Assembly: GCA_903885605.1 (NCBI GenBank)
Contig: CAISJD010000115.1
Location: forward strand, 1 to 36,389
Length of the DNA: 36,389 nt
Source of the DNA: an uncultured Chthonomonas sp.
Lineage (GTDB): Bacteria; Armatimonadota; Chthonomonadetes; Chthonomonadales; CAJBBX01
Direction: 5' to 3'
Part shown: positions 7,410 through 36,389 of the stretch, in pieces
Layout: each line of letters begins with the position of its first letter
How positions within the stretch are numbered: position 1 is the stretch's first letter
Notes under the pieces: model-generated
What the model saw: the letters and a program-made list of their open reading frames with translations, nothing else
Database searches by the model: none
What the model was told of the DNA's origin: nothing
Made by a program: the position numbers and the translations under genes

Positions 7410-7422
7410 CGGTCGGCGCCTC

Positions 7423-8217: not shown

Positions 8218-8259
8218 GCTCAGCGCCCTGCTTCCGCGCCGGTATTGGACACCACCCCG

Positions 8260-9096: not shown

Positions 9097-9141
9097 GCAT
9101 TTACCCTCAGCCATACCGGACCGATGCGACCAACATAGGTT

Positions 9142-9170
9142 TATATAGACCGATTGCCTCGTAGAATCAA
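9142..9170 (-). promoter_or_regulatory. Candidate internal sigma-70-type promoter
   Basis: On the minus strand a TTGATT element (9165-9170) is separated by 17 bases from TATATA (9142-9147), each matching four of six consensus positions. TATAAA shifted by two bases is a better hexamer but with 19-base spacing. It lies in the short AT-rich gap between the fucosyltransferase and the GT2 gene, 46 bases before the chosen GT2 start. It could add transcripts for the lower half of the operon. It is a consensus match only. Confidence 0.3.
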
Positions 9171-9184
9171 TGGGAATGACCGCG

Positions 9185-20703: not shown

Positions 20704-22587
20704 ATGACCTGTATGGGCCCAGATCTCTGCGCAACTCCGCCGGCGCCTTGGGCCGGCTCGATCCGACGGCTTCTCGCGGGCGCCGGCCTGGCGACTGCCC
20801 TGGCCCTGACCTCGGGCGCCACGCCGACCAGCGCCCAGGAAGCGCCGTGCTGGTCGCCCACCCCGTCGATCACCGGGCTCTCCGGCCTGATCCGAATGCC
20901 GACCGCCGATATCATGCGGTCGGACCGGTGGCGCTTCAGCTATACCTCACCGCAGACCAAGTGGGATCCAAACGTGGGGGCCACCGCCGGTCCGGCCCTG
21001 GGCATGAGCTTCCTGCCGCGAACGGAGATGGCCTTCGCCATGGGATCGCGGAACCAGGGGTTCTTCGACCTGACGTTCCACGGGAAGCTTCAACTGGCGC
21101 CGCCGCGGCTCGGGCGACCGGGCCTTGCCGTGGGAATGGTGGACGCCGGCCGATCGGACCAGACCTCGGGTGGCACCAAGTTCGCCGTGGCCACGCTACC
21201 GCTGCTGAGTGGCCGCGCGTCGCTGTCGGCGGGAGTGGCCGGCGGCGAGACGCAGGGCCTCTTCGGCGGCGTGAGCTGGCGGCCGATCCAGGCGTTGGAG
21301 CTACAGGCGGAGTATGACACCGAGCGGCTGAACAGCTCACTGGTGCTGCATGCCGGCGATATGGCGTTCGCTCGGGTGGCCGACCTTAACAGCGGCAAGG
21401 TCGTGGGCATCGGCGTGGAGCTACCGTTCGAGTACCCGACCAAGCTGCGGGCGCCGGCCGAGGCCACCGGCCGGGGCACCGGGACGGAAGCCGCAACCGA
21501 GGCGCTCGTGGGCCTCGGGTTCGAGGACGTGCGGGTCTGGACCGCGGAGGGCGGCGCCGTCCTCGCGGCCTCCTACGAGAACCGGACGTACACGCTGAGC
21601 GAGCAGGACGGCATTCGCGCGGGGATGGCGGCGCTGGCCGGTTGTGCGCCGCGCGGCGCGAGCCGGCTGACCGTGGAGCTGACCCGTCGTGGCGTCGCCA
21701 CGGTGCGCGCCACGGCCCCTGTGGACGGCGCAGAGGGTCCGCTGAGCATTGAGGCGCCGCAGCCCGGCGCCGGGTCGGAGGTTCGGCCCGCCAACCCGAG
21801 CTGGGGGCATGCCGACGTCCAGATCGGGCTCGGGCTCAAGACGCAAGTCGGCTCCAACTACGGCGCGCTGCGCGGCGGAGCCCTTGCGCTGCCCGAGGTC
21901 GTCCTGCCGGTGGCGCGGGGCCTGGTGCTGAACGCGCGCTACAGCTACCCGGCCGTGGGCGGCGAGGTCTCGGGGATGCCCCGGCGGCTGACCAACGACC
22001 GCGCCATCGCTGCATATGCCTTCAGGCCAGGCGGCGGCTGGCTCGCGCAAGTCTCCGGTGGCCGGTACCCCTCGAACTGCGACGGCGCAGTCCTGGAGCT
22101 GGCGCGGCCGGTATCTGACCGCGGCCTCATGCACCTTGTCGGTGGACGGGCCGAGAACGACCGGCTCCAGACCCGGGCCTACCTGCTGGGCGAGTACTGG
22201 CACTGGTTCCCGAAGGAGGCGATCCAGGTAAGGTTGCTGGGCGGGCGGTTCATCACCAACGACCGCGGCGTCGGGTTCGACGTGATGCGCTGGTGGGGTG
22301 ATGTGCGGGTCGGCTTCGGCGTTCGCGATACGTCGCGCACCCGCACGGCGCAGATATCGGCGAGCCTGCCGTTGGGCCCGCGGGCGCAGACCCGCCGGCC
22401 CGGCACGGCCAGGCTCCGCATTGCCGACAGGCTGGACCACACGGTCCGCACGGTGATCAAAGGCGACCACAACTCGCTCTACCTGCTCGAGGAGACCGCC
22501 GGCGAGCTGCAGATCGGGCAGGACCTGGTCACGTCCTTCTTCGATCGCGGACGGCTGCTGCCGGGGTCGGGGCTGTGGGGGCGGTAG
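20704..22587 (+). CDS. yjbH: YjbH-domain outer-membrane exopolysaccharide protein
   Basis: This is a 627-residue secreted protein. A signal peptide spans roughly residues 16-45 (hydrophobic AGAGLATALALTSG, cleavage near PTSA-QEA). The mature part starts with the YjbH hallmark SITGLSGLIRMPTADIMRSD and WRFSYT. Repeated amphipathic strands follow, and near the C terminus EYWHWFPKEAIQVRLLGGRF and FDVMRWWGDVRVGFG are also typical. YjbH proteins are predicted outer-membrane beta-barrels tied to exopolysaccharide production in E. coli (yjbEFGH). Here yjbE, F and G are absent. The protein implies an outer membrane. The start is the ATG at 20704 after AGAGGGGA. A second ATG at 20713 is possible. A clear terminator follows at 22673. 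Confidence 0.88.
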   Translation: MTCMGPDLCATPPAPWAGSIRRLLAGAGLATALALTSGATPTSAQEAPCWSPTPSITGLSGLIRMPTADIMRSDRWRFSYTSPQTKWDPNVGATAGPALGMSFLPRTEMAFAMGSRNQGFFDLTFHGKLQLAPPRLGRPGLAVGMVDAGRSDQTSGGTKFAVATLPLLSGRASLSAGVAGGETQGLFGGVSWRPIQALELQAEYDTERLNSSLVLHAGDMAFARVADLNSGKVVGIGVELPFEYPTKLRAPAEATGRGTGTEAATEALVGLGFEDVRVWTAEGGAVLAASYENRTYTLSEQDGIRAGMAALAGCAPRGASRLTVELTRRGVATVRATAPVDGAEGPLSIEAPQPGAGSEVRPANPSWGHADVQIGLGLKTQVGSNYGALRGGALALPEVVLPVARGLVLNARYSYPAVGGEVSGMPRRLTNDRAIAAYAFRPGGGWLAQVSGGRYPSNCDGAVLELARPVSDRGLMHLVGGRAENDRLQTRAYLLGEYWHWFPKEAIQVRLLGGRFITNDRGVGFDVMRWWGDVRVGFGVRDTSRTRTAQISASLPLGPRAQTRRPGTARLRIADRLDHTVRTVIKGDHNSLYLLEETAGELQIGQDLVTSFFDRGRLLPGSGLWGR

Positions 22588-22672: not shown

Positions 22673-22711
22673 GGGGCGGCTCAACCCTCACGGGTTGGGC
22701 CGCCCCCTTTT
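22673..22711 (+). terminator. Intrinsic terminator after yjbH
   Basis: A 15-base-pair stem pairs 22673-22687 with 22692-22706, broken only by one G-T wobble, around a TCAC loop. It is followed by TTTT at 22708-22711 on the plus strand. The T run on one side only suggests it ends yjbH transcription, about 85 bases after the stop. It also separates yjbH from the convergent acetyltransferase gene, whose stop is at 22725. Confidence 0.85.
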
Positions 22712-22724
22712 GTCTGGATCCTGG

Positions 22725-23390
22725 CTACCCCGCGGCCCGCATCGCCCTCGCCGGTACGCCGTAGGCGACGATGCCTGAGGGCAGGTCGCGCACTACGACC
22801 GCGCCTGCGCCGATGGTGGTGTCGGAGCCTATGGTGAGGTTGTTGGCGACGGCGGCGGCGATGCCCACGAAGGTCCTGGGGCCCACGGTGACCGTGCCGG
22901 CCAGGTGGACGCCGGGGCAGAGGTGGACGCCGTCGCCGACGCGGCAGTCGTGGTCGACCGTGGCGGCGGTGTTGACGATGGCGTGGGACCCGACCCAAGA
23001 GCGCGCGCCCACCACGGCGCCTGCCATGACCACCGTACCCGGGCCCAGCGACGCGCTGGCGGCGACAGTGGCGCGGGCGTGGACGATCGTGACCAGTTCG
23101 AAACCCTCTTCGGCGAGCGCCTCGGCAAGGCGAAACCGAACCCGGCAGTCGCCGATGGCGACGAACGCATGGCGGATGCCTGACGCCCGCAGCGCCGGGA
23201 GCTGCTCGCGGCCGCCGAAGAACGGCTCGAGAAACGGCGGGTCACCGGGCCGGGGTGCACCGGCGTCATCCAGGAAGCCCACGAGCTCGAGCCCGGGACA
23301 CGTGGCCACGGCGTCGGCCACGGCGGCGGCATGCCCGGAGGCGCCGTAGAGGAGGATCCGAGTGGGCGGGGCGGAGGCGCTAGCATCCAT
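22725..23390 (-). CDS. NeuD/PglD-family sugar acetyltransferase
   Basis: This 221-residue protein has the two-part NeuD/PglD design. Residues about 10-100 form a Rossmann-like sugar-binding domain (RILLYGASGHAAAVADAV, LELVGFLDD, AFVAIGDCRVR). Residues about 100-221 form a left-handed beta-helix with VVMAGAVVGARSWVG, NTAATVDHDCRVGDGVHL and VYG-type closing VAYGVPARAMR. The histidine of VDHDC is the expected catalytic base. These enzymes N- or O-acetylate a nucleotide-sugar or sialic acid using acetyl-CoA. The start codon (23390) overlaps the end of the phosphoglycosyl transferase gene by 11 bases. That pairing resembles PglD-PglC in bacillosamine pathways. The NeuD alternative is favoured if it serves the nonulosonate genes upstream. 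Confidence 0.9.
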   Translation of the reverse strand: MDASASAPPTRILLYGASGHAAAVADAVATCPGLELVGFLDDAGAPRPGDPPFLEPFFGGREQLPALRASGIRHAFVAIGDCRVRFRLAEALAEEGFELVTIVHARATVAASASLGPGTVVMAGAVVGARSWVGSHAIVNTAATVDHDCRVGDGVHLCPGVHLAGTVTVGPRTFVGIAAAVANNLTIGSDTTIGAGAVVVRDLPSGIVAYGVPARAMRAAG

Positions 23391-24045
23391 GCGCGTCGGC
23401 TCCTTGCCCTGTGAACTCCGTCATCGTCTCCACACCCGCCGCGCTGATGCCCTCGCGCCGCACCACGGTGGCGAAGGTGCGGAGTAGGATCTGGGCGTCG
23501 AGGCCGTGGGTCCAGTGGTCGACATACCAGGTGTCCAGCGCGAGCCTCTCGGGCCAGTCGAGGGCGTTGCGGCCGTGCACCTGCGCCCAACCGGTGATAC
23601 CGGGGCGAACCTCGTGGCGGCGGGACTGCTCGGGGCTGTAGAGCGGCAGGTACTTCATCAGTAGCGGGCGCGGGCCCACCAGGCTCATGTCGCCGCACAG
23701 GACGTTCCACAGCTCCGGCAGCTCATCAAGGCTCAGGGCGCGGAGGCGGCGACCGAACGCCGTGAGCCGCTCGTCGTCGGGCAGGAGGGCGCCGTCGGGG
23801 CCACGGCCGTCGGTCATGGTCCGGAACTTCACCATGCCGAAGGGCTTGCCGCCCAGGCCGGGCCGCTGCTGCCGGAAGAGGACGGGAGAACCGAGGCGGA
23901 CCCGAACCAGCAGCGCGACGACGGCCATGGGCGCACTCAGGATAAGCAACGCGACGCCTGCGGCGAGGATATCCGCCGCCCTCTTCAGGCCGGGCGACCG
24001 CCAGAGGCGCGGGGCCGGGCGGTCGCCGAAGGCTGTGGTTTCCAT
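23380..24045 (-). CDS. Initiating phosphoglycosyl transferase, PglC-like
   Basis: This is a 221-residue membrane-bound sugar transferase. It transfers a phospho-sugar from a UDP-sugar to undecaprenyl phosphate, the first step of lipid-linked glycan assembly. The small-family signatures are complete: an N-terminal KRAADILAAGVALLILSAP re-entrant helix, VLFRQQRPGLGGKPF, VKFRTM, SLDELPELWNVLCGDMSLVGPRP (with the catalytic Asp-Glu pair) and RPGITGWAQVHGRN. It lacks the extra N-terminal membrane helices of WbaP/WcaJ. The start is the ATG at 24045, or an ATG at 24054 just upstream. The longer open frame is a shadow of ugd. It overlaps the acetyltransferase gene by 11 bases. Confidence 0.9.
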   Translation of the reverse strand: METTAFGDRPAPRLWRSPGLKRAADILAAGVALLILSAPMAVVALLVRVRLGSPVLFRQQRPGLGGKPFGMVKFRTMTDGRGPDGALLPDDERLTAFGRRLRALSLDELPELWNVLCGDMSLVGPRPLLMKYLPLYSPEQSRRHEVRPGITGWAQVHGRNALDWPERLALDTWYVDHWTHGLDAQILLRTFATVVRREGISAAGVETMTEFTGQGADAHGC

Positions 24046-24079
24046 AGGGGACATTGTACCGGTCCGCCCGCGCGGGCGG

Positions 24080-25444
24080 CTACTTGCCGATGCGGATGAG
24101 GTCCAGGCCGGCGGCGCGGACCACGCCCGTGGGCAGGCAATTGCGGCCGTCGACGACCACGCTGCCCCGCATGGCGGCGGCCACGGCGCGCCAGTCCAGC
24201 GCGACGTACTCGGGCCAGTCGGTGCAGACGACGAGGGCATCGGCGCCGCGTGCGGCTGCCTCGGCGTCGGGCGTCAGCGTTACGTCCAGCGAGGGGTAGT
24301 CGCGTCGGAACGCATCGGCCGCCACGGGGTCATGGGCGCGCACGAAGGCGCCGCACTCCAGCAGCATCTGCACGAGGTCGGCCGCAGGGGCCTGGCGCAC
24401 GTCATCGGTGCCCGCCTTGAAGGCGAGGCCCAGGAGGCCCACCTCGCGGCCCCGGAGGCCCTTCAGCGCGCGCTGCAGCTTCTGGACGACCTGGGCCCGC
24501 TGGCGGCGGTTGACGGCCGTGGAGGCCTCCAGCAGGGGCATGGTGTACTCGTGGTCGGCGCCCATGGCGATGAGCGCCTGCGTATCCTTGGGGAAGCAGC
24601 TTCCGCCCCAGCCGAGCCCGGCCTGAAGGAAGCCCCGGCCAATGCGCGCGTCGAGACCCATGCCGTCGGCCACCTGCGAGACGTCGGCGCCGACCCGCTC
24701 ACAGAGGCCAGCGATCTCGTTGATGAAGGAGATCTTGGTGGCGAGGAAGGCGTTGGAGGCGTACTTCGTCATCTCGGCGCTGGCCGTCGACGTGGTGAGC
24801 ATGGCGGGCAGCGCGAAGCCGATGGGCCGCGGGCAGATGGGCGGCGGCGCGAACGACTGCGTCAGCACCTCCTGGTAGAGCTCGCGGGCGGTCTCCAGGG
24901 CGTGGGACGACTCCGAGCCGACAAGGATGCGGTCCGGATAGAACATATCGAGCAGCGCCTTGCCCTCGCGAAGGAACTCGGGGTTGGAGGCGAAGCTGAC
25001 ATCGCAGGTGACGCCGCGGCTCGCAAGCACGCGGGCCACGGCGGCCTGGACGCGATGGTTCGTCCCTACGGGAACGGTGCTCTTGACGACGATGACCAGC
25101 TGCGCGCCCACGGCCAGGTCGCGTGCCACATCCTCGGCGGCGGCCTCGACCCAGCCGGTGTCGGCCTGGCCGTGCTTGCCGGGAGGCGTACCCACGGCGA
25201 TGAGCGCCACGCGTGCGCCGGGCAGGACTTCGGCGAGGTCCGTGGTGTAGGTCATCCGCGCCGCGACCTGGGGCATGGCCAGCAGTTCGGCGAGGCCCGG
25301 TTCGTGGATCGGCACGCCGCCGGAGCGGAGCAGCGCCACGCGGGCCGGGTCCTTCTCGACGATACCCACTTCGTGTCCGAGATAGGCGAACGCCGCGCCG
25401 CAGTTGAGGCCCACATAGCCGGCGCCGATAACGACAATTCTCAC
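24080..25444 (-). CDS. ugd: UDP-glucose 6-dehydrogenase
   Basis: This 454-residue NAD-dependent enzyme oxidises UDP-glucose to UDP-glucuronate in the cytosol. The features are the N-terminal dinucleotide loop IGAGYVGL, the EFLREGKALLDMFYPDRILVG segment (around residues 155-180), the central helix TKISFINEIAGLC, and the active-site peptide GWGGSCFPKDT with Cys283. The C-terminal domain begins near LLGLAFKAGTDDVRQAPA. The start is a GTG at 25444, overlapping the stop of the upstream kinase as GTGA. GGGAG lies six bases before it inside that gene. The two proteins are therefore probably made in a fixed ratio. UDP-glucuronate would feed the surface glycan or provide UDP-xylose or UDP-galacturonate. 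Confidence 0.95.
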   Translation of the reverse strand: MRIVVIGAGYVGLNCGAAFAYLGHEVGIVEKDPARVALLRSGGVPIHEPGLAELLAMPQVAARMTYTTDLAEVLPGARVALIAVGTPPGKHGQADTGWVEAAAEDVARDLAVGAQLVIVVKSTVPVGTNHRVQAAVARVLASRGVTCDVSFASNPEFLREGKALLDMFYPDRILVGSESSHALETARELYQEVLTQSFAPPPICPRPIGFALPAMLTTSTASAEMTKYASNAFLATKISFINEIAGLCERVGADVSQVADGMGLDARIGRGFLQAGLGWGGSCFPKDTQALIAMGADHEYTMPLLEASTAVNRRQRAQVVQKLQRALKGLRGREVGLLGLAFKAGTDDVRQAPAADLVQMLLECGAFVRAHDPVAADAFRRDYPSLDVTLTPDAEAAARGADALVVCTDWPEYVALDWRAVAAAMRGSVVVDGRNCLPTGVVRAAGLDLIRIGK

Positions 25445-26523
25445 AAGACGCTCCCTTCTACTGCCGTATCGACCGGCGCATGACCGGCGTGGGGCGAGGC
25501 CGGACAGGGCGCGGCCCAGCGTATCTCCTCAAGCTGATAGCCGATCCCCTCGCACTCGGGCGCCAGATCGGAAATCGTGGACCCTTCCGGCACCACCCCC
25601 ACCACGGCGCCGCCCGAGCCCGGGAACGACGCCGAGAAGCCGAGCTTGCGTGCCGCGGCCACCATGGCCAGGTTGCGGTCGCCGATGGCGGCGTCGCCGT
25701 AGACCGAGCGGCGGATGTCGAATCCGGCGCTCATCAGGCGGCCCATTTCGGCGTAGCGGCCTGCCTTCAGGGCAGCCAGGCCCTGGTCGGTGAGCTGGGC
25801 GAGGGCCTGCATGGCGTCGATCACCTGCTGGTCGCCGCGCTGGAAGCGGGTCCGCACGTCGCTGTGGATGCGGCCCGAGTCGCTGGGGTGGCTGTCCCAG
25901 GCCAGGTACATCAGCGGCAGCAGGGAGGGATCCAGCGGCGTGTAGTCGCCATAGCCTCGCCGCTCCATAAGGGCGCGGTCGAAATCCATATGGACGCAAC
26001 CGCCGTAGGTCTGCACCACGCGGTCCTGCAGGCCGGCGGCGATGGCCAGCTCCTGCATCTCCACGTCGAGCACGAGGTTCGGGCGCTGCGTGCGGGGCAG
26101 CGCGTCCTCCGGCACGGCGTAGAAGCGCATAAGGGCGTTGACGGCGGCGGTGACGATGGCGCTCGAGCCCGCGAGGCCCACCTGGCGCGGGATGTCGGTA
26201 TCGTAGGTGATCGTGAAGCAGCGGCCGGGTAGCCGGTAGCCCAGGTCGGCGCAGTGCTGCGAGAAGCGCTTGCAGGCCGCGAAGATGAGCCGCATGCCGC
26301 CGTAGTAACCGTTCTGGATGGCGGTCTCGCGCAGGGCCTCCAGCGACGCGAACTCGGCAGGGTCGTGCACCGGATGCGGAAGGATGCGCAACGTGGGGCT
26401 CTCCCAGAGCGTCACGGACGCATGGAAGTTGGCGATCGTCGCGGCGATCGTCTTGCCGAAGAAGCCGTCTGACGGATTGCCGATGATGCCGACGCGCGCA
26501 TCCGCCCGTGTGCGTATGATCAA
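25441..26523 (-). CDS. GHMP-family sugar kinase, glucuronokinase-like
   Basis: This is a 360-residue GHMP kinase. The N-terminal ARVGIIGNPSDGFFGKTIA, the middle NGYYGGMRL, ITYDTDIPRQVGLAGSSAI (ATP loop at 116-122), AGLQDRVVQTYGGCVHMDF, HPSDSGRIHSDVR, FDIRRSVYGD and GSGGAVVGVVPEG all recall plant glucuronokinase, which phosphorylates D-glucuronate at C1. I recognise this by memory of the plant family, not by a search. The product, glucuronate-1-phosphate, would need a UDP-sugar pyrophosphorylase (absent here) to become UDP-glucuronate, the same compound made by the overlapping ugd. The start is a TTG at 26523, eight bases after GGAGG. No in-frame ATG fits. Confidence 0.85.
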   Translation of the reverse strand: MIIRTRADARVGIIGNPSDGFFGKTIAATIANFHASVTLWESPTLRILPHPVHDPAEFASLEALRETAIQNGYYGGMRLIFAACKRFSQHCADLGYRLPGRCFTITYDTDIPRQVGLAGSSAIVTAAVNALMRFYAVPEDALPRTQRPNLVLDVEMQELAIAAGLQDRVVQTYGGCVHMDFDRALMERRGYGDYTPLDPSLLPLMYLAWDSHPSDSGRIHSDVRTRFQRGDQQVIDAMQALAQLTDQGLAALKAGRYAEMGRLMSAGFDIRRSVYGDAAIGDRNLAMVAAARKLGFSASFPGSGGAVVGVVPEGSTISDLAPECEGIGYQLEEIRWAAPCPASPHAGHAPVDTAVEGSVL

Positions 26524-26626: not shown

Positions 26627-26682
26627 CCATTTTAGACTTGCAATTTTATACTTTATACTTTAGACTTGACTCTCTAGACTTT
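26627..26682 (-). repeat. Eight degenerate heptanucleotide repeats
   Basis: On the minus strand, eight consecutive seven-base units run from 26682 to 26627: AAAGTCT, AGAGAGT, CAAGTCT, AAAGTAT, AAAGTAT, AAAATTG, CAAGTCT and AAAATGG. The array is exactly 56 bases and is the most AT-rich spot in this half of the window. The methyltransferase stop codon (26674-26676) lies inside the first two units, so its last residues are encoded by repeat sequence. The rest fills the gap before the glucuronokinase gene. Confidence 0.8.
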
Positions 26683-27762
26683 CAACTCCCCCGCCACCTG
26701 CTCTACGCGCCAGAAGTCGGCGTTGGGCGGCACGTTGTCCGACATGCCGAGGATAAAGCCTCGGCGGCCGCGCAGGGGCAGGATCACCTCACGCATGTAC
26801 CGCAGGAAGTCGTCGCGCGTTCCACCCTCTTCGCAGACGAGCACCGATGGGATGCCGCCCTGCAGCACGACCTTGCCGTCGAGCATATCCAGCGCATCGG
26901 GCAGGCTCAGGTCGGCCATGGGAGCGGTGACGATGGCCTCCACCACATCCAACCCGCAGCCGGGCACGAGCGGAAGCAGGGCCTGCGTCTGGCCGCACCA
27001 GTGCCCCTCGAAGAGCTTGCCTGCCGCGTGGACGACGCTCGCGGCAGCCTGGTAGAAGGGCACGGCGTAGCGCTGGAAGAGGCGCGGCGAGAGGGTGCGG
27101 CCGTCCATGTTGTCACCCGTGTGCAGGACATCGGCCGGACCCGCGGCGGCCACGCGGATGCCGGCCAGGAAGCTCTCGGTGTAGGCCTCCAGCAGTCGCT
27201 CGACCTCGCGCGGGTGGTCCTGCAGCAGGTAGAAGGCGGTGGCGTAGCCCGCGTCGGTCTTGGCGAACTGCAGGAAGGGCACCAGGAAGATGCCGGAGAG
27301 CACCACGCCCTCGTCGCCTGTCTCGGCGAGCGCCTGATGCACCGTACCGAAGTCGGGCTCGTAGCGGGTCGCCTCGGCGATGTAGGTCAGTACGCGCAGG
27401 TCATCAGGCCCCTTGGCGAAGTGCTCCGCCAAGAAGCGCGAGCGGTAGGCGCCCTCCGTCGGCAAGTAGACCTCGCGGATCGTGCCCACCGGCGTGTCGA
27501 ACTCATGCACAGACCGGCCGTCGCACTGGCTCCAACGCTCTGTGACACTCGGGTCCAGCACGGTACGAAGGCCGCCGGACCGGTTCCAGAGGGTTGCGCC
27601 GATGGCCCGCACGATCTCGTTGCGCGACATCCCCTCGACCTGCTGCGGCACAGTGCCCTCGGCGCAGTTGACGGCCAGCCAGTAGTCGAAGTTGGGCGCC
27701 CAGACCAGGGCATCGACGGCCTCGTTGCGCAGGGCTGCCAGATAGCGTTCGCGTTTGGTCAT
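26674..27762 (-). CDS. URO-D superfamily methyltransferase (MtaA/CmuA-like), not heme biosynthesis
   Basis: This 362-residue TIM-barrel protein belongs to the uroporphyrinogen decarboxylase superfamily. The MtaA/CmuA branch transfers methyl groups between corrinoid proteins and thiols such as coenzyme M using zinc. MTKRERYLAALRNE is the standard opening. HWCGQT places His254 and Cys256 in the H-x-C zinc motif of that branch, and Cys310 in IPSVLVCEEGG may be the third ligand. LHTGDNMDGRTLSPRLFQRYAVPFY and VLQGGIPSV are also typical. The start is an ATG at 27762 that overlaps the kinase stop as ATGA. No corrinoid protein is in the window. The substrate is unknown. The last codons fall in the heptad repeat array. 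Confidence 0.85.
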   Translation of the reverse strand: MTKRERYLAALRNEAVDALVWAPNFDYWLAVNCAEGTVPQQVEGMSRNEIVRAIGATLWNRSGGLRTVLDPSVTERWSQCDGRSVHEFDTPVGTIREVYLPTEGAYRSRFLAEHFAKGPDDLRVLTYIAEATRYEPDFGTVHQALAETGDEGVVLSGIFLVPFLQFAKTDAGYATAFYLLQDHPREVERLLEAYTESFLAGIRVAAAGPADVLHTGDNMDGRTLSPRLFQRYAVPFYQAAASVVHAAGKLFEGHWCGQTQALLPLVPGCGLDVVEAIVTAPMADLSLPDALDMLDGKVVLQGGIPSVLVCEEGGTRDDFLRYMREVILPLRGRRGFILGMSDNVPPNADFWRVEQVAGELKV

Positions 27763-29177
27763 CTGCGTACTCCTTCAGCCCCAACTCCCCACCCCGCCAC
27801 CATGGCCGCGCCAAGGGCGGCTTCCTCGGACTGCGGCGGGAGGGAGAGGGGCAGGCCGAACCGCTCGGATAGGATGGCGGCGAGGAGCGGGTTGCGGCGG
27901 ATGCCGTTGCCCGCGCCGATCAGGACCGCCGGCGGATGGCCCACGAGGCGCGTGATGGCGCCTGAGCCGGCGTGCATCGACGCGGCCATGCCCTCCAGCG
28001 CCGCGCGGGCAAGGCCGCCTGGCGTCAGGTTCGCCTCGCTCAGGCCGGTCAGGCTGCCGCGCAGGGCGGGGTCGGAGCGCGTGCCGGCGAAGCGCGGGTC
28101 GCACACCAGACCGGCTGCGCCGGGCGGCGCCTGGGCTGCGAGCTCGGCCATGCGCGCGTAGACCTGCTCCTTGCCGGCCGCCACGCCGAAAGCGCCCAGT
28201 AGGTCCCGGTAGAGGGTCTGCAGCGCGGCGTAGGAGCGACCGCCGCTCACCTCGGCGAAGACGACCAGGTAGCCCGAACGGGGGTAGGGCCTTATCTCCA
28301 GTTCGGGCGGCAGGTCGGCGTCCGGCGGCGGCGCCTCGGCGGCGAAGCGAGCCACCTGCGCTCCCGTGCCGACGTTCACCAGTTCGGCGCCCTCGGCCGA
28401 CGGCACGCTACCCAGGAAGCCCGCCTGGTTGTCGCCGAGCCCAACGAAGAGGGGCAGGCCCGCAGGCAGGCCGGTGCGCCGGGCCCACTCGGCAGTAAGA
28501 GAACCCAGCGGCTCCCCGGCCTCGCGCACCGGCGGCAGCAGCCGCTCGGGCAGGCCCAGCGCCTCCAGCATGGGCCTCGACCACGCGCGGCGGCGCACAT
28601 CGAGCAGACCCGAGCTCGCCGCCATGGTGGGATCCGTGGCAAGCGCGCCGTCGGTGAGCAGGGCAGCCAGATAGCCGGTGATGAGGCAGGCCCGAGCCCC
28701 GGGCGGGGCGGCGCCCTGCTCCGCCAGCCAGTGGAGCGTGAGGCCCAGGTAGCCCGAAGCGATGCGGCAGCCGGTGACGCGCCACGCCTCCACGCCCATT
28801 CGGTCCGACGCGCCCTCAAGCCACGTGCGGCCATCAGGACCAAGCTCCCCTCCGCGTCCGTCCTGCCAGTTAACGAAGGGCGTCAGGGGCCGCAAGCCGC
28901 CATCGACCAGGAGCATACCGTGCTGCTGCCCCGTGAAGGCCAGCCCTGCCAACTCGCCGATGCGCGCCCCCAACCGGCTGACGCACTGGCGCAAGGCCGC
29001 GGCGGATGCTTCTGCCATGGCGTGCGGATCGAACTCGCGCCGTCCGAGCGCAAGCGGCCCCGGGTCGGCCGAGGGCGTGTCGGCGTGGCCCAGCGCGACG
29101 ACCTTGCGCGTCTCGGTGTCCAGCGCCAGCGCGCAGGTCTTGGTGGTGCCGATGTCGACGCCCAGGGTCAGCGGCAT
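27759..29177 (-). CDS. FGGY-family carbohydrate kinase
   Basis: This 472-residue sugar kinase phosphorylates a sugar or polyol with ATP in the cytosol. Its two actin-like domains are marked by LGVDIGTTKTCALALD at the N terminus, GLAFTGQQHGMLLVD, PFVNWQDGRGG, then LFVGLGDNQAGFLGS (catalytic Asp) and ELVNVGTGAQVARF, and GAGNGIRRNPLLAAIL near the end. The GQQHG and NWQDGRG elements are closest to what I remember of sedoheptulokinase and xylulokinase relatives. The exact substrate is not settled. The start is the ATG at 29177, with GGAG upstream, ten bases after the secreted-protein gene. Its stop overlaps the methyltransferase start, so the two are translationally coupled. Confidence 0.9.
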   Translation of the reverse strand: MPLTLGVDIGTTKTCALALDTETRKVVALGHADTPSADPGPLALGRREFDPHAMAEASAAALRQCVSRLGARIGELAGLAFTGQQHGMLLVDGGLRPLTPFVNWQDGRGGELGPDGRTWLEGASDRMGVEAWRVTGCRIASGYLGLTLHWLAEQGAAPPGARACLITGYLAALLTDGALATDPTMAASSGLLDVRRRAWSRPMLEALGLPERLLPPVREAGEPLGSLTAEWARRTGLPAGLPLFVGLGDNQAGFLGSVPSAEGAELVNVGTGAQVARFAAEAPPPDADLPPELEIRPYPRSGYLVVFAEVSGGRSYAALQTLYRDLLGAFGVAAGKEQVYARMAELAAQAPPGAAGLVCDPRFAGTRSDPALRGSLTGLSEANLTPGGLARAALEGMAASMHAGSGAITRLVGHPPAVLIGAGNGIRRNPLLAAILSERFGLPLSLPPQSEEAALGAAMVAGWGVGAEGVRR

Positions 29178-29187
29178 GGCGCGCTCC

Positions 29188-30546
29188 TCACAGTTTCACG
29201 CGGATACGGCCGTAGCGCATGGTGGGGAGGGCGCCGCCCACGTCGCCGATGATGTCGATCACGTCGGACGGCTTGCCGCCGGCCCGCTCCGTGGCGGTCA
29301 TGAAGTTGGTGAATGGTTTGGCGAACGGTACCCGCAGGGCGGCGGTCACCTTGCCGGAGCCGTCCAACGCCAGGATGCGGTTCTCCGCAACCGAGCCGCC
29401 GATGTAGGCCACCACCGTCAGCCGCCCACCGGGCAGGGCGTGGAAGCGGCCGTAGCCAGGCACTTCGGACGACGCTTCCTCGCCGCCCCTGGCCAGCGTA
29501 GACCGCAGGACCACCTTTCCTCGATCGACCACGGCGTACTCCAGCGAGGTGGTCAGCGGCGTGCCCGGGAAGAAGCGATCGCGCATGGCGGCGTGCCAGA
29601 CGCTCCGCTCCAGCCAGAGCAGGTGGGCGCGCCCCTTGGCGTCTATCCACATGTCGAGGTTGGTGATCTGTCCGCAGGTGGCCTCGCGGCCGGCCACCTC
29701 CACCGGCACGCTGAAGCCCTGCTTGCCGAGGTCGGGCGTCCACGCATAGAAGAGGCGGCGGAACTCGTAGTCCCACTCGTTGCCGGTCAGTTGCCGCTTG
29801 AACTCTCGCCAGGCTCGGACCGGCTCGATGATGTCGCTGACCCCCATGAAGTGCGCCGCGCGTCCCTGCAGGGCCAGCACGGGGTAGCAGAGGCGGATCG
29901 GCTCCGGCTTCTCGTACTCCACCCCCATGGGGAACTCAAGCTTGCCCGAAGCGATCCACCGGCCGGCCCTGTCGCGCAGGCTCCACCACTGGGCCTCGTG
30001 CCCCTCCACGTTCATCAGCAGCAGGTCGCCCGTGGCGCCGTCGGCGGCCAGGCCCCGGTAGCTGTGCTCGGTGAAGGCAGGTTTGCCGGACCAGACCGGA
30101 TCGGACGGCGTCGAGGCGATCACGGGCCCGGTCAGATCGAAGTCGAACACCTGGGGCTTCGACGGCCCGTTGTACGTGCCCAGAGGCGTGAGCGTGGGGT
30201 TTACCGAGAGCGCCAGACGGCCCGGCCGCGGCGCTGCCACCGGGCAGGGCTCTCGGGTGCGGCCGGTCTCGTCGGCGGCGATGGACGTCCAACCCGTCGC
30301 GCCGCGCTTCCAGAGGACCCAGCGGCAGTTGTTCAGGATCCTGGCGCCGGGGATCGTCTCCAGCCCGCTCACGTAGACATCACCGCCGACCCGCATCACG
30401 CAGGTGGAACCGTAGCACCACATGGGTCCTGCGCCGTTACCGGCCGGGGCGTAGGTGTAGACGGCTTCCTCGGCCTCGACCCGCGCGGACGGACCCGCGG
30501 GCACGACGCCCAGCAGCAGCACTCCGACGGCAAGCATGACGAGCAT
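29188..30546 (-). CDS. Secreted protein of unknown function
   Basis: I do not recognise this 452-residue protein. It starts at the ATG at 30546, eight bases after AGGAGG, with a clear signal peptide (MLVMLAVGVLLLGVVPAG, cleavage near ARVEA). The mature part has many short beta-strand segments separated by Gly/Asp turns, for example GGDVYVSGLETIPG, HSYRGLAADGATGDLLLMNVEG, MWIDAKGRAHLLWLERS, RLTVVAYIGGS and ILALDGSGKVTAAL. These resemble the blades of a sialidase-like or BNR-type beta-propeller. Three Trp-rich stretches may bind carbohydrate. Together with the kinase and methyltransferase it forms one operon divergent from the large glycosidase, so it may help recognise or process the same substrate. 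Confidence 0.7.
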   Translation of the reverse strand: MLVMLAVGVLLLGVVPAGPSARVEAEEAVYTYAPAGNGAGPMWCYGSTCVMRVGGDVYVSGLETIPGARILNNCRWVLWKRGATGWTSIAADETGRTREPCPVAAPRPGRLALSVNPTLTPLGTYNGPSKPQVFDFDLTGPVIASTPSDPVWSGKPAFTEHSYRGLAADGATGDLLLMNVEGHEAQWWSLRDRAGRWIASGKLEFPMGVEYEKPEPIRLCYPVLALQGRAAHFMGVSDIIEPVRAWREFKRQLTGNEWDYEFRRLFYAWTPDLGKQGFSVPVEVAGREATCGQITNLDMWIDAKGRAHLLWLERSVWHAAMRDRFFPGTPLTTSLEYAVVDRGKVVLRSTLARGGEEASSEVPGYGRFHALPGGRLTVVAYIGGSVAENRILALDGSGKVTAALRVPFAKPFTNFMTATERAGGKPSDVIDIIGDVGGALPTMRYGRIRVKL

Positions 30547-30632
30547 GGCAGGGCCCTCCTGGCCACCGGGCCGCGTCGAACGACACGTGATGGTGACATA
30601 CTGGCACATCAGACGGAGCAGGGGGAAGCGTG

Positions 30633-33626
30633 ATGCGAAGTGCGACGAGTTGGGCGGCCCGTGCGTGGTCGGGACTGGCGGCGGCTCTGGCCGTCGTCGG
30701 CGCCGGAGCGGCGCAGGCCCGTCCCGCCGACCGGCCGATCATCGTCGACAAGGGCATCCTCCGGTGGGCGGACACGCGGCGCGAGGTGGCCCTCTTCGGC
30801 GTCAACTACTACGCGCCCTTCTGCATGGACTTCGCCGCCCTGGGCACGCTGGGCGCCGACCGCGACGCCACCATTCGCCGCGACGTGGCGCAGTTCGTGC
30901 GGCTGGGCCTGGACCTCGTGCGACTGCATACGTTCGACCGGGAGATCAGCGACGGCGAGGGCAACCTGGTCGACAACGAGCACCTGCGCCTGCTGGACCT
31001 CCTCCTCGCCGAGTGCAAGCGCAACGGCATCTACGCCGTGCTGACGCCCATCGCCTGGTGGCCCGCCGGGCGCACCACGCAGGGCTTCTCGGACCGCTTC
31101 ACCATGCCGCAGATGATCACCGACCCCGTCGCGCAGGCCGCCCAACGCCGCTACCTGGACCAGTTCCTGCGACACCGCAACCGCTACACGGGTCTCGCCT
31201 ACGGCGCCGATCCCATGGTGGCGGCCATTGAGTTGATCAACGAGCCGATCCCGCCCGCCGGAACCACCGACGCGCAGGTCACGGCCTACATCGACGCCCT
31301 GACCGAAGCCGTTCGTGCGGCGGGCTGCTCGAAGCCCGTCTTCTTCAACGGCTGGGGCAACCGGCTGGCCGCCGTGGCACGCTCGCAGGCCGACGGCTGC
31401 ACCTTCGGCTGGTATCCGACGGGACTGGTGGCAGGCCAGGAGTTGCGGGCCGACTTCCTGCCCCGCGTGGCCGACTACCCCGAGATGCGGAGCCCCGACC
31501 TGGGCGGCAAGGCCATCGGCGTCTACGAGTTCGACGCGGCCGACGTGGCGGAACCCTATATGTACCCGGCCATGGCTCGGGCCTTCCGGGCGGGCGGCGC
31601 CCAGTTCGCGGCGCAGTTCCAGTACGACGCCACGCCGCTGGCGCCCACCAACGTGAACTGGCAGACGCACTACCTGAACCTGCTCTGCACGCCGCGCAAG
31701 GCGGTCAGCTTCATGATCGCCGCCGAGGCCTTTCGGGCACTTCCCCGCCTCCACACGAGGCGCACGCACCCGGCCAACGCTCGCTTCGGCGAGTTCCGCG
31801 TGAGCCATGCTCAGGGGCTCAGCGAGCGCGTCTCGGCCACGACGTTCCTCTACTCAAACAGCACGGCCACGCGACCGCCGAAGCCGGGGTTGCTCACCCG
31901 CATCGCGGGCTGCGGCTCGTCGCCGGTGGCGGCCTACGAGGGATCGGGCGCCTACTTCATGGACCGCGTGCGGCCGGGTCTGTGGCGTCTGGAGGTGACG
32001 CCCGACGTGGTCTGGGTGGATGACCCCTTCGGCGCCACGGGGCTCGGCAGGGAGGTGGCCCGCCTGTTGCACCGCGACCGGCGCCTGACCCTGAGGCTCC
32101 CCGACCTCGGCGGCGACTTTCAGGCGTTGCGGTCCGGGAACGAACGATGGATCGCCTGCCTGGGCGGCAGCATCACCGTGCGACCCGGCGTCACCTTCCT
32201 GCGGCGGAGAGGCGTCTCGACGGCGATCCCCGCCGGCCTGCCCGCACCGCTCTGGCTGCCGGATGAGGCCAGGGGCCTGCCCGCTCGCATCCGCCACGCG
32301 GCGCCCCGCGTTTGGCCCGCGGGCAAGGAGATGCACTTGCGCTGCTCGGTGGCGCCGGCGTCCGGGGTTGGTAGCGCACAACCTGTCCGGGTGGAGTGGC
32401 TCCACAGGGGCGCCTGGCAAGGCCGCTCCATGCGATCCACCACCGCCTTCGAGTACGCCTGCACGATCCCGGCGGGCGAGCTACCCTCGAGCCGGCTGGA
32501 GTACCGCATCCGCGTGGGCGAAGGGCCGGGAGCGCCCGTCTTCCCCGGCGGGCGACCGGCCATCGGCCCGGAACCCGCCGCCGTCACGCTCTGGGAGCAG
32601 AAGGCCGGCGCCGGCGCGCCCGCCCTTGAGCTCTCCGGCGCGCCCGGCCAGACCGCAACCGCCCGGGTGGCCGCCTCGCCCGACGGCCCCTCGCTGCGCC
32701 TCTCGGCCACCGGGTTCGGCGACCCACCCAGTTGCGCGGCCATCCAGCTACGGGCGACGGCGGCCCGGCCGGTCCCCGGCGCCTCGCTCGTGCTCCGCGC
32801 TCGGGCCCTGTACCCCGAGACCACCAGCGTCGAGGTCGGCCTCCTGCAGGCCGACGGCAAGGCCTTCGGCGCCGAAATGCCCCTGACCACGGAGTGGTCC
32901 GATGTGCGCCTGCCGCTCGACGCCCTTCGCCCACTATGGGGCGAGTGGCAGGGCCGGCCGGACCCGGCGCAGGTCCGCGAGGTCCGCTTCACCTTCGGCT
33001 CCTGGCTCTACGTCACCGCCGGCAAGCGGCCCCACGGCCTGGAGGTGCAGCGCCTGCGCCTGGAGCCCGAGCCCCAGGCATGGCGCGTGGAGCTGCTTCC
33101 GGCCACCGAGCCGCTGCGCCTCGTGGCCGGCGACCTTGTGCCCGCCATCCAGGGCGGGACGCGGGCCCGGGCCCACACCGTGGGCGGCAGCCGAAGCCCG
33201 GCGCTCCGGGTTGAGACACCCGGCTTCGGCCCGGCGCCCGACGCGGCGAGCTTCCGAATCGACCTGGCGGACGCACTGGCTCCCTGGCGCGGCTCGCTGG
33301 CCCGGAGGCCCGGACTGCGCATCCGCGCACGAGCCGGCGAGGCCTCCACAACAGCCATCGAGTTCGTGGCGCTGGAGGCCGACGGCACGCCCTGGGGCGC
33401 CACTATACCCCTGACGACCGAGTGGCGCGACATCACGCTCCGATGGGAGGAGCTGCGCTTCTTCCCGCACTGGGCCCATCCCGCCGGGCGCGGCGGACCC
33501 CAGGACCGCCTGCTGCCCGAGCGCCTGGCCTCGCTCAACTTCTGCTTCGGCGCCTGGCTCTATCCGAAGGACTTCGACCAGCGGCACGGCTTCGACATCG
33601 AAGGCGTCTGGCTCGACGCCCCGTAG
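30633..33626 (+). CDS. Large secreted glycoside hydrolase with two C-terminal beta-sandwich domains
   Basis: This 997-residue protein begins with a signal peptide (cleavage near GAAQA-RPA). Residues about 30-370 form a GH5/GH42-like (beta/alpha)8 barrel of clan GH-A. FGVNYYAPF and LDLVRLHTFDREI are the early strands, IELINEPIP gives the acid/base Glu204, and IGVYEFDAAD gives the likely nucleophile Glu299. A linker region with beta domains follows. Two related modules (about 690-825 and 830-997) share PLTTEW-D-L, F-FG-WLY and HG, and look like carbohydrate-binding sandwiches. The start is the ATG at 30633 with GGGGGA upstream, rather than the GTG at 30630. The stop codon lies within a 29-base palindrome. 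The substrate is unknown. Confidence 0.85.
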   Translation: MRSATSWAARAWSGLAAALAVVGAGAAQARPADRPIIVDKGILRWADTRREVALFGVNYYAPFCMDFAALGTLGADRDATIRRDVAQFVRLGLDLVRLHTFDREISDGEGNLVDNEHLRLLDLLLAECKRNGIYAVLTPIAWWPAGRTTQGFSDRFTMPQMITDPVAQAAQRRYLDQFLRHRNRYTGLAYGADPMVAAIELINEPIPPAGTTDAQVTAYIDALTEAVRAAGCSKPVFFNGWGNRLAAVARSQADGCTFGWYPTGLVAGQELRADFLPRVADYPEMRSPDLGGKAIGVYEFDAADVAEPYMYPAMARAFRAGGAQFAAQFQYDATPLAPTNVNWQTHYLNLLCTPRKAVSFMIAAEAFRALPRLHTRRTHPANARFGEFRVSHAQGLSERVSATTFLYSNSTATRPPKPGLLTRIAGCGSSPVAAYEGSGAYFMDRVRPGLWRLEVTPDVVWVDDPFGATGLGREVARLLHRDRRLTLRLPDLGGDFQALRSGNERWIACLGGSITVRPGVTFLRRRGVSTAIPAGLPAPLWLPDEARGLPARIRHAAPRVWPAGKEMHLRCSVAPASGVGSAQPVRVEWLHRGAWQGRSMRSTTAFEYACTIPAGELPSSRLEYRIRVGEGPGAPVFPGGRPAIGPEPAAVTLWEQKAGAGAPALELSGAPGQTATARVAASPDGPSLRLSATGFGDPPSCAAIQLRATAARPVPGASLVLRARALYPETTSVEVGLLQADGKAFGAEMPLTTEWSDVRLPLDALRPLWGEWQGRPDPAQVREVRFTFGSWLYVTAGKRPHGLEVQRLRLEPEPQAWRVELLPATEPLRLVAGDLVPAIQGGTRARAHTVGGSRSPALRVETPGFGPAPDAASFRIDLADALAPWRGSLARRPGLRIRARAGEASTTAIEFVALEADGTPWGATIPLTTEWRDITLRWEELRFFPHWAHPAGRGGPQDRLLPERLASLNFCFGAWLYPKDFDQRHGFDIEGVWLDAP

Positions 33627-33651: not shown

Positions 33652-33761
33652 CTGCGCGGGCTCCTAACGGACAGATAACGGTCGGGCGGTATGTTCCCCG
33701 CGTCATGCACAGCAGAATCGGAGGTCCAGCCGCACATGCCCACGCAAGACTGGCCGTAGCC

Positions 33762-33777
33762 CGGCACGAATGTGGCA
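33762..33777 (+). promoter_or_regulatory. Candidate sigma-54 (-24/-12) promoter for the SARP-like regulator
   Basis: CGGCACGAATGTGGCA matches the consensus TGGCACG-N4-TTGCA at nearly all fixed positions. GG at 33763-33764 and GC at 33775-33776 are separated by exactly ten bases. Transcription would start near 33788, about 19 bases before the regulator ATG at 33807. A GGGG ribosome-like element at 33794-33797 fits in that leader. This is a sequence match only. Confidence 0.4.
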
Positions 33778-33806
33778 TATTGATACCGTCCTCGGGGTAT
33801 CCAACA

Positions 33807-36389
33807 ATGCCAGACGCCATGTGGTCTTTCGAACTGCTGGGTGGGCTCAGGCTGGCCAGATCGGGTCAGGTGATTACCCGGTTCCGCGCCTCCAAGAACG
33901 GCTCCCTGTTAGCCTTTCTAGCCCTTCGACGCGGCCAGCCCATACCTCGAGACACGCTTGTCGAGGAGTTCTGGCCGGGGGCCGCCATCGAGGACGGCCG
34001 AAACTCATTTCGCGTAGCGCTGAACTCCCTGCGCAGGCAGCTTGAGCCCGCCGGCGTCATGCCGGGCTCCGTGCTGCAGACGTCGCGCATCCACGTGGGC
34101 CTCAATCCTGACGCCTACACGACCGACGTGGCCGAGTTCGAGGGGCTCATCCGCACCGCATCGGCCGACACAACGCCCACCGACAAAACCCTCGCTGCCC
34201 TGCGCGCGGCCGTAGACCTCTATCAGGGCGACTTCATGGCTGACTGGGGCGACGCCTGGATCGAGGCAGAGCGCGTGCGGCTGGCAGAAATGCACCTGGC
34301 CGCCCTCAACCGCCTCGTGCGGGCCTGTGTCGATGCCCGGCAGTACGATCAGGCCCTCGCCTTCGCCCGCCGGGCGGTGGCGGCGGACCCGCTCCACGAG
34401 CGATGGCACCGCACGCTCATGCGGCTGCATATCGCCATGGGCAATCCCGCCTCCGCCCTCCGGCAAATGGACGAGATGCGGCGCATCCTCGCCGCCGAGC
34501 TCGGCATGGCGCCCTCCGCGCAGAGCGAGGCGCTGGCCGAGGAGGCCCGCGCATCAACGGGGATCACCCGGGCGCCGGCGACGCGCCCCTCCTACCGCGC
34601 CGATGCGGCAGATCCGACACCTGTCGCCCAGCCTTCGGCGCCGGCGGCGCCGAAGCGACGCCTCCCTTCGGTGCCCACCCGCTTCTTCGGCCGTGAGGCC
34701 GAGCTGAGCGCCGTCACCGCCATGCTCGCCGAGTCATCGGATGGCTCCTTCGTGACCATCACCGGACCCAGCGGCGCAGGCAAGACACGCCTGGCCATCG
34801 AACTGGCCCGCACCGCGGCCGCTGAGATGGGCGACCGCGTCTGGTTCGTTGAGCTGGGCGATGCTCGCGACGCGGACGCTGCAGGCTCGCGCATCGCCGC
34901 CGCCGTCGCACCGCAGGCAAGGCCTGAGGCGGGTTGGCTGGAGCCGGTCGCCGCAATCCTCTGCCAGGGCCCCGGACTTCTGGTGCTGGACAACCTGGAG
35001 CAACTCCCCTCGGCAGGTGAAGAGGTCGTGGGGCCGCTGCTGGCGCGTGCACCTGCCATGCGCTACGTGGTGACGTCACAGGCGAGGCTGACTATCGCCG
35101 GCGAGAACGATCTCCAGATGGGCCCCCTGGCGCTGCCGCCGGATGGCCTCGATCCGGCCGAGGCGCTGGCCAACCCGAGCGTGGCCCTCTTCGTCGATCG
35201 CGCCGTGCAGGCCCGCGCCGATTTCGTCATCACCGAGGCCAACTGCCGCGCCGTGTGCGACCTCTGCCGCCTCCTGGAGGGCCTGCCGCTGGCAGTGGAA
35301 CTGGCCGCCGCGTGGTCGCAGGTCTACACACCGTCGCAGATGCTGAGCCGTATGGCCGACCGGTTCGCGCTGCTGGTGAGCCCCCGGGGAATGGCGGGCG
35401 ACCGTCGGCGGGCGCTCCATGCCGCAGTCGGCTGGAGCTTCGACCTGCTGCCCGCCGAGACCGCCTCGGCCCTGGTTGCCGCCTGCGCGTTGGAAGGGTT
35501 CTGGACGCTTGAGCAGGCCCAGGCGATCTCTGGACGGGAGGATATGGCCTCGGCGCTGGCGGAGCTCTGCTCCCGGTCCCTCGTGCGAAGCCGGCCAACC
35601 GAAGGCGGCATGCGGTTCACGATGTACGAGACGCTGCGGATCTATGCGGCGGGCAGGGGCGGCGAGGCCGAGATGGGCCGCATCCGCCGCCTCCACGCCG
35701 AGCACTTCAGCGAGCTGGCGCGCCAGGCGGCCGATGCCGGAGGCCGTTCGGCGCTCGACAGCGCCGATGACGCCAACTACCGGGCGGCGGTCGAGTGGCT
35801 CGCGCGAAACGGCGACGGCGCTGCCGCCATCGCGCTCTGCACGCGCCTCTGGCGCCACTGGTACGCCACCGGATGGGTCGCCGGCGGCCGTAAGCTGTTG
35901 ATCTCGCTCCTCGCCACGCAGCCGGATGCACCGGGCGCCGCAGAGGCCATGCTCGCCGCGGGGCGCTTCGCGGCGGCGATGGGCGATACCGGCGAGGCGC
36001 ACACCCTCCTTGCCGCCGCTGTGCGCCGCACGGACCCGCTGGTGGACCAGGACCTCCATGCCGCCGCCAGCACCGAGCTGGCGCTGATCACGGACGCCGG
36101 CGAGCCAGGCCACGAGGCAGAAGCCGCACTGGCGGCCCGCTGCGCCGCGGCGCTGGCGCGCAACGACGAGCCTGCCGCCGCCCGGGCGCTCGAGCGGTCC
36201 ACCGATGTGCTGCTGAGGCAGGGGCGCTGCCTGCGCGCCGCCGAACTGGCCGCCCAAGCCGCCGGAATGTGGCGTACGGCGGGCTGCGGCCTTGGCGTAG
36301 CCGACGCCCTGTCCGCCCGTGCCGAAGCGCTGGAGGGCTGTGACAACGGGGGCGCCGCCGCCGCGTTGTCCGAGGCCGAGGCCGAGGCG
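33807..36389 (+). CDS. SARP/BTAD-type transcriptional regulator with NTPase domain (3' end beyond window)
   Basis: The frame is open from an ATG at 33807 (GGGG nine bases before it) to the window edge, giving 861 codons without a stop. Residues about 5-95 are an OmpR-type winged-helix domain (SFELLGGLRLARSG, RDTLVEEFWPG, NSFRVALNSLRRQL). Residues about 105-245 are a bacterial transcriptional activator (BTAD) domain of helical repeats. An Ala/Pro linker follows, then an NTPase with FFGREAELSAV, Walker A GPSGAGKT (320-327) and Walker B LLVLDNLEQL (Asp395). LEGLPLAVELAAAW, WSFDLLP and the start of TPR-like helices follow. It resembles AfsR-type activators. Its target is unknown, though the neighbouring glycosidase or glycan genes are natural candidates. 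Confidence 0.9.
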   Translation, partial: MPDAMWSFELLGGLRLARSGQVITRFRASKNGSLLAFLALRRGQPIPRDTLVEEFWPGAAIEDGRNSFRVALNSLRRQLEPAGVMPGSVLQTSRIHVGLNPDAYTTDVAEFEGLIRTASADTTPTDKTLAALRAAVDLYQGDFMADWGDAWIEAERVRLAEMHLAALNRLVRACVDARQYDQALAFARRAVAADPLHERWHRTLMRLHIAMGNPASALRQMDEMRRILAAELGMAPSAQSEALAEEARASTGITRAPATRPSYRADAADPTPVAQPSAPAAPKRRLPSVPTRFFGREAELSAVTAMLAESSDGSFVTITGPSGAGKTRLAIELARTAAAEMGDRVWFVELGDARDADAAGSRIAAAVAPQARPEAGWLEPVAAILCQGPGLLVLDNLEQLPSAGEEVVGPLLARAPAMRYVVTSQARLTIAGENDLQMGPLALPPDGLDPAEALANPSVALFVDRAVQARADFVITEANCRAVCDLCRLLEGLPLAVELAAAWSQVYTPSQMLSRMADRFALLVSPRGMAGDRRRALHAAVGWSFDLLPAETASALVAACALEGFWTLEQAQAISGREDMASALAELCSRSLVRSRPTEGGMRFTMYETLRIYAAGRGGEAEMGRIRRLHAEHFSELARQAADAGGRSALDSADDANYRAAVEWLARNGDGAAAIALCTRLWRHWYATGWVAGGRKLLISLLATQPDAPGAAEAMLAAGRFAAAMGDTGEAHTLLAAAVRRTDPLVDQDLHAAASTELALITDAGEPGHEAEAALAARCAAALARNDEPAAARALERSTDVLLRQGRCLRAAELAAQAAGMWRTAGCGLGVADALSARAEALEGCDNGGAAAALSEAEAEA

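Follow-up and report, generated by a model that had tools for sequence, protein, structure and literature searches.

The window studied here is the whole 36,389-nucleotide contig C115 (CAISJD010000115.1) of a 5.6 Mb genome from an uncultured Chthonomonas sp., a lake bacterium of the Armatimonadota. Its central element is a gene at 26674–27762 on the minus strand, which encodes a 362-aa protein of the URO-D superfamily (hereafter MT), a putative corrinoid-dependent methyltransferase. The preliminary description of this DNA had placed MT and its three neighbors in a possible module for utilization of O-methylated glycans. The gene positions, the H254-x-C256 motif of MT and the translational coupling of MT to a sugar kinase, which it reported, are exact in the sequence: the gene for a xylulokinase-like FGGY carbohydrate kinase (27759–29177, minus strand) shares with the MT gene an ATGA overlap (27759–27762, minus strand), which comprises the kinase stop and the MT start. 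The gene for a probably secreted β-propeller protein (29188–30609, minus strand) lies 10 bp upstream of the kinase gene, and the gene for a GH5-like protein of 998 aa (30630–33626, plus strand) is divergent from both. The Rfam search of the window revealed no RNA elements.

The Pfam search assigned MT to the URO-D family (PF01208) with 56.8 bits versus the cut-off of 23.9, and the HMMER alignment placed its H254-W-C256-G opposite the H-I-C-G of MtaA (4ay7 in the PDB), i.e. the zinc motif. The AlphaFold2 model of MT (pLDDT 93) exhibits the URO-D/MtaA fold, with Z-scores (VIA-align) of 24 for decarboxylases and 22.8 for MtaA, over ~300 residues, and of 14–15 for MetE. Assignment of MT to MtaA/CmuA was rejected (TIGR01463: 24.4 bits, far under the cut-off of 235.4), as was its identification with HemE (no TIGR01464 match); the likely HemE of this genome is a separate strong URO-D match (450 bits, contig C200). 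C256 and C310 are near-invariant in the alignment of MT orthologs. Most cousins have Asp instead of the Cys that the MT clade carries at residue 256, and Asp342 does not vary among the 18 relatives of A1. Of 45 URO-D proteins in one alignment, MT included, 25 carry the H-x-C motif, 10 carry H-x-D and 6 carry D-x-D. We infer that MT is a methyltransferase; the clade to which it belongs, characterized by the H-W-C-G motif and Asp342, is previously undescribed.

Both FGGY_N (128.2 bits) and FGGY_C (73.2 bits) score above their cut-offs in the kinase, which was rejected as xylulokinase proper (XylB, TIGR01312: 176.4 bits, under the cut-off of 380.25). The propeller protein has no Pfam matches; AlphaFold2 models it as a β-propeller (mean pLDDT 83), as the preliminary description had surmised. 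The comparison of this model with the PDB ranked the PL42 and GH145 enzymes first (Z 26–28, CylK among them), followed by lectins (~25) and then by PL25 and WD40 proteins (~23). No sequence relationship to PL42 or GH145 is detectable, and because residues 1–181, where the His pair of PL42 and the His of GH145 would be expected (no residue-level superposition), are devoid of His, the catalysis of these families is probably not shared by the propeller protein, which resembles them in fold, with no evident catalytic His. Since the hydrophobic leader begins at M27 and the homologs (alignment of 9) have no counterpart of residues 1–12, the real start of the protein, as judged from the sequence, is probably M27, near position 30531, rather than the annotated one. 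The GH5-like protein, the large exported glycosidase of the preliminary description, possesses an N-terminal signal-like leader (judged by eye), its N204-E205-P206 and Y299-E300 are invariant in 7 homologs, with catalytic roles of Glu205 and Glu300 suggested by position, and its profile matches GH5 mannanases (best E 1e-8), but its match to Cellulase (PF00150) is marginal (23.9 bits versus the cut-off of 23.5).

The same four-gene order is found in both other species of the genus (G001 and G002), with 80–91% identity and with the ATGA overlap of the kinase and MT genes retained in each, while the neighbor past the GH5-like gene differs, unlike the conserved block. The grouping is therefore more than chance. 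In the window this neighbor (33705–36389, plus strand) encodes a SARP/AfsR-like regulator with BTAD and AAA domains, which is absent from that position in both congeners. The next relatives after the genus are Chthonomonadales. Searches via homologs of the propeller protein, the GH5-like protein and the kinase did not find the four genes together beyond the genus, where homologs of the propeller and GH5-like genes mostly stand alone; G007 has a propeller homolog at a distance of ~5 kb from a URO-D gene, but the genes that separate them are unrelated. Conservation of the neighborhood thus extends to all three species of the genus, and outside it the genes are separate.

Corrinoid machinery and its co-occurrence with URO-D proteins

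The host genome encodes 53 URO-D proteins, but a single stand-alone corrinoid protein of the MtaC/MtbC-like type. Its gene, on contig C161, is accompanied by genes for an MtaA-like URO-D protein, a homocysteine S-methyltransferase-like protein and a ferredoxin, as well as by glycosidase-like genes. MetH is encoded on contig C198. One reductive activase (RACo) is encoded on C120, adjoining another MtaA-like URO-D gene, and one methyltetrahydrofolate (methyl-THF):corrinoid methyltransferase, above its cut-off, on C77, adjoining a MetF-like gene. The preliminary description had anticipated that a corrinoid partner would be encoded elsewhere, as the C161 protein and also MetH are, and had suggested a search for reactivation proteins, which yielded RACo. 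The finding that it had named as a refutation, a genome devoid of corrinoid proteins, was not obtained.

The co-occurrence counts were transcribed by hand from tables. The 22 genomes with a member of the MT clade all possess the corrinoid protein or RACo (18 and 20 genomes, respectively). Among 61 genomes of the phylum, the corrinoid protein is present in 36 of the 39 that have URO-D relatives of MT versus 2 of the 22 that do not, and RACo in 38 of 39 versus 2 of 22, the exceptions without URO-D relatives being the same two genomes in both cases; the corresponding P-values (6e-11 and 7e-13) are inflated by kinship. When the comparison is restricted to a single family of the order (f3), 5/5 genomes with URO-D relatives have RACo versus 2/12 without (P-value 0.003). 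Because of this phylum-wide co-occurrence, we read the URO-D relatives of MT as enzymes that work with one shared corrinoid protein, a reading rather than a demonstration. A role of MT in corrinoid-dependent methyl transfer is likely, and we infer that MT uses the C161 protein.

A corrinoid island was observed at positions 3776–10691 of L092, with equivalents in L148 and L150; it is conserved in the genus and partly in sister genera, and comprises genes for the corrinoid protein, a 380-aa protein, an MtaA-like URO-D protein, a homocysteine S-methyltransferase-like protein, a ferredoxin and small proteins. The 53 URO-D places of the host genome differ in motif (H-x-C, H-x-D or D-x-D) and have mixed neighbors, including three sulfatase-family matches.

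Surroundings of MT orthologs and of the four-gene block

The genome-collection scan revealed about 20 orthologs of MT (42–91% identity, 3 of them partial at contig edges), whose record titles name Armatimonadetes, Verrucomicrobiia, Omnitrophota, Planctomycetota/Phycisphaerae, TA06 and several Clostridia. Carbohydrate genes surround the ortholog in some loci. It lies near two GH4 genes and an esterase gene in L076. In L084 an MttB-family methyltransferase gene overlaps the ortholog (6602–9245), between a gene for a related esterase and a pectate-lyase-like gene, and an ABC transporter is encoded nearby. The esterase resembles CE15 less than it does a SusD-associated esterase and a putative acetyl xylan esterase, and the GH4 protein is closest to phospho-glucosidases. 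In L083 (1050–8119) the ortholog and another URO-D gene share one run with the genes for a MurNAc-6-P etherase (MurQ, above its cut-off), NanE and a NagK-like kinase, possibly an amino-sugar pathway using URO-D proteins. Gfo/Idh/MocA genes are found near the ortholog in L075 and L087, the latter with an AraC-type gene as well.

Downstream of MT, past a gap of 150 bp that holds promoter-like sites, lies a GHMP-family kinase gene (25441–26523, minus strand; GHMP_kinases_N in Pfam, syntenic in the congeners with 94% identity). It is followed by genes for a protein of the UDP-glucose/GDP-mannose dehydrogenase family (24080–25444, minus strand; TIGR03026 above cut-off, syntenic, 95% identity), a bacterial sugar transferase of the polyprenyl glycosylphosphotransferase type (23380–24240, minus strand; Bac_transf in Pfam, syntenic, 84–87% identity) and a NeuD/PglB-type acetyltransferase (22725–23390, minus strand; TIGR03570 above cut-off, syntenic in G001). 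Because of the gap and its promoter-like sites, these genes may form a transcription unit separate from that of MT.

Further away (436–22587), the window contains a polysaccharide cluster with ABC exporter genes, many glycosyltransferase genes and a NeuB-like synthase gene, in which a CMP-sugar synthetase/phosphatase-like fusion (5191–6597) was read from the sequence and a YjbH protein is encoded at 20704–22587; a strong terminator-like hairpin of 15 pairs (22673–22706) separates the YjbH gene from the convergent NeuD-type gene. The GHMP kinase, beside UDP-glucose dehydrogenase, presumably resembles eukaryotic glucuronokinase; the searches returned just weak heptose-kinase and mevalonate-kinase matches for it. 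A glucuronate theme (UDP-glucose dehydrogenase, the glucuronokinase-like kinase, CE15-like esterases near MT orthologs, propellers of the rhamnose-glucuronate type) is suggestive, but every link in it is weak, and we therefore name no substrate.

Proposed role of MT and alternative explanations

We tentatively propose that outside the cell the GH5-like enzyme and the propeller protein would act on a glycan, freeing a sugar from it or capturing one, and that inside the cell MT would take a methyl group from that sugar or a derivative and transfer it to the single stand-alone corrinoid protein, the cobalt of which would be held in the reduced state by RACo. The methyl group would then pass from the corrinoid to tetrahydrofolate or homocysteine, and the FGGY kinase would phosphorylate the sugar once demethylated. 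The ATGA coupling and the gene order kept in three species, the match of H254-x-C256 to the zinc motif of MtaA, and the corrinoid machinery with its co-occurrence across the phylum speak for this proposal. The glycosidase-like genes beside the corrinoid gene are consistent with it too, as are the GH4, CE15-like esterase, pectate-lyase-like, amino-sugar or MttB genes that surround some orthologs. As a whole, including the identity of the methyl donor with the sugar handled by the kinase, it is possible, and falls somewhat short of an even chance. Of the methylated-sugar pathway in the preliminary description, corrinoid-dependent methyl transfer thus stands as likely; the O-methylated sugar as the substrate of MT is a guess, for which the kinase and the glycan enzymes provide the grounds and to which some ortholog contexts lend themselves.

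Several observations weigh against the proposal. The linkage of MT to the kinase, kept in 2/2 congeners, is limited to one genus, and in none of the ortholog loci outside it does a kinase ortholog adjoin the MT ortholog, so that the expectation of finding the two together in relatives was borne out within the genus and not beyond. No corrinoid protein gene was found beside MT or its orthologs in the window and the ortholog loci examined. In Omnitrophota (L077–L081) and TA06 (L082) the MT ortholog adjoins, in the loci read, housekeeping genes of the TilS, DnaG and signal-peptidase types. A comparison of 86 immediate neighbors of the other URO-D genes of the host genome with 80 control proteins (25 commonest families each) revealed no carbohydrate bias. 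The Asp342 of MT lies opposite a Cys of an MtaA-like paralog from the same genome, i.e. at the third metal-ligand position, according to an alignment and not a superposition. Finally, the four-gene block is attached to polysaccharide-synthesis genes, running on in the congeners into those for the GHMP kinase, UDP-glucose dehydrogenase and sugar transferase (84–96% identity).

This last attachment fits an explanation in which the block belongs to the metabolism of the cell's own polysaccharide, MT and the kinase trimming, recycling or modifying its sugars rather than those of foreign glycans. The shared synteny and the polysaccharide cluster directly downstream speak for it, but the gap with promoter-like sites divides the two groups of genes and the MT orthologs in the other loci examined lie outside polysaccharide-synthesis clusters, which makes it unlikely. 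Alternatively, MT could be an MT2-type enzyme that transfers the methyl group from a methyl-corrinoid to a thiol, in the manner of MtaA/MtbA, with another protein responsible for demethylation. The HxC motif common to MT and MtaA agrees with such chemistry, and the MttB-family gene overlapping the ortholog in L084 recalls the division of labor between MttB and MtbA. Considering the low MtaA/CmuA score (24 versus the cut-off of 235), the replacement of the third Cys by Asp342 and the lack of an MttB-type gene in the window, we regard this option as quite unlikely.

Or perhaps MT could be independent of corrinoids, a URO-D-fold enzyme that acts on a sugar or sugar acid by some other chemistry? 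The disproportion between 53 URO-D proteins and one stand-alone corrinoid protein, the near-tie of the decarboxylase and MtaA fold scores and the H-x-D instead of H-x-C in cousin clades could be explained in this way. The near-perfect co-occurrence of the URO-D relatives with the corrinoid protein and RACo, the near-invariance of Cys256 in the MT clade and the presence of HemE as a separate gene argue to the contrary, and this alternative appears quite improbable.

The corrinoid-dependent demethylation proposed above may also be cast in a broader form, that of a distributed network, in which one corrinoid protein, RACo and one methyl-THF:corrinoid methyltransferase would serve dozens of separately encoded URO-D demethylases, each traveling with the genes for its own methylated substrate, and MT, coupled to a sugar kinase, would represent the first demethylase of O-methyl sugars among them. 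Taken jointly, these claims are doubtful. The parts of the system belong to known superfamilies; in the open-access literature, which yielded nothing relevant on corrinoid sugar demethylation or on URO-D systems of Armatimonadota, we found no description of coupling between a corrinoid-type URO-D gene and a gene for a sugar kinase, nor of one corrinoid protein facing dozens of URO-D enzymes.

O-methylated sugars are frequent in plant, algal and bacterial polysaccharides, and the sole sugar-demethylating route known to us is the oxygen-dependent P450 system for 6-O-methylgalactose. If true, an oxygen-independent corrinoid route would explain the use of O-methylated glycans by anaerobes and provide a role for part of the large URO-D expansions in Armatimonadota. 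Owing to the phylum-wide co-occurrence of the URO-D proteins with a lone corrinoid protein and RACo, the idea can be tested on many candidate methyltransferases with a single corrinoid protein.

Comparison with known systems

The PL42 and GH145 families, which the propeller model matches best in structure, include the β-propeller enzymes FoRham1 and BT3686, which act on rhamnose-glucuronate linkages with the catalytic His residues H85/H105 in FoRham1 (PL42) and H48 in BT3686 (GH145) (PMC8377490). MtaA, MtbA and CmuA (TIGR01463; 4ay7) have the URO-D fold and the position of the H-x-C motif in common with MT, but MT has Asp342 for the third Cys and shows no context of coenzyme M or of the CmuA corrinoid domain. 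The type 1 mlp gene clusters of anaerobes combine UroD-superfamily methyltransferases with a corrinoid protein and an activase (Kountz and Balskus, PMC10418091), whereas the window contains one URO-D gene, accompanied by a sugar kinase, and no corrinoid or Ram gene was found in it.

The UroD-superfamily corrinoid O-demethylases MtvB, OdmB, VdmB and MtoB and the chloromethane enzyme CdmB (PMC13222342), the last of which works without zinc, provide a further comparison. MT resembles them in its URO-D fold and in the proposed methyl transfer from a substrate to a corrinoid protein, and the host genome possesses, as in those systems, a RACo-type activase and a methyl-THF:corrinoid methyltransferase, so that all three accessory components of such O-demethylases are encoded in it (corrinoid protein on C161, activase on C120, methyltransferase on C77), with no corrinoid gene adjacent to MT or, in the loci examined, to its orthologs. 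In the known systems, whose substrates are methoxylated aromatics or haloalkanes, the methyltransferase, the corrinoid protein and MT2 stay together; in the present genome, by contrast, MT is paired with a sugar kinase, and the corrinoid protein is encoded on a different contig.
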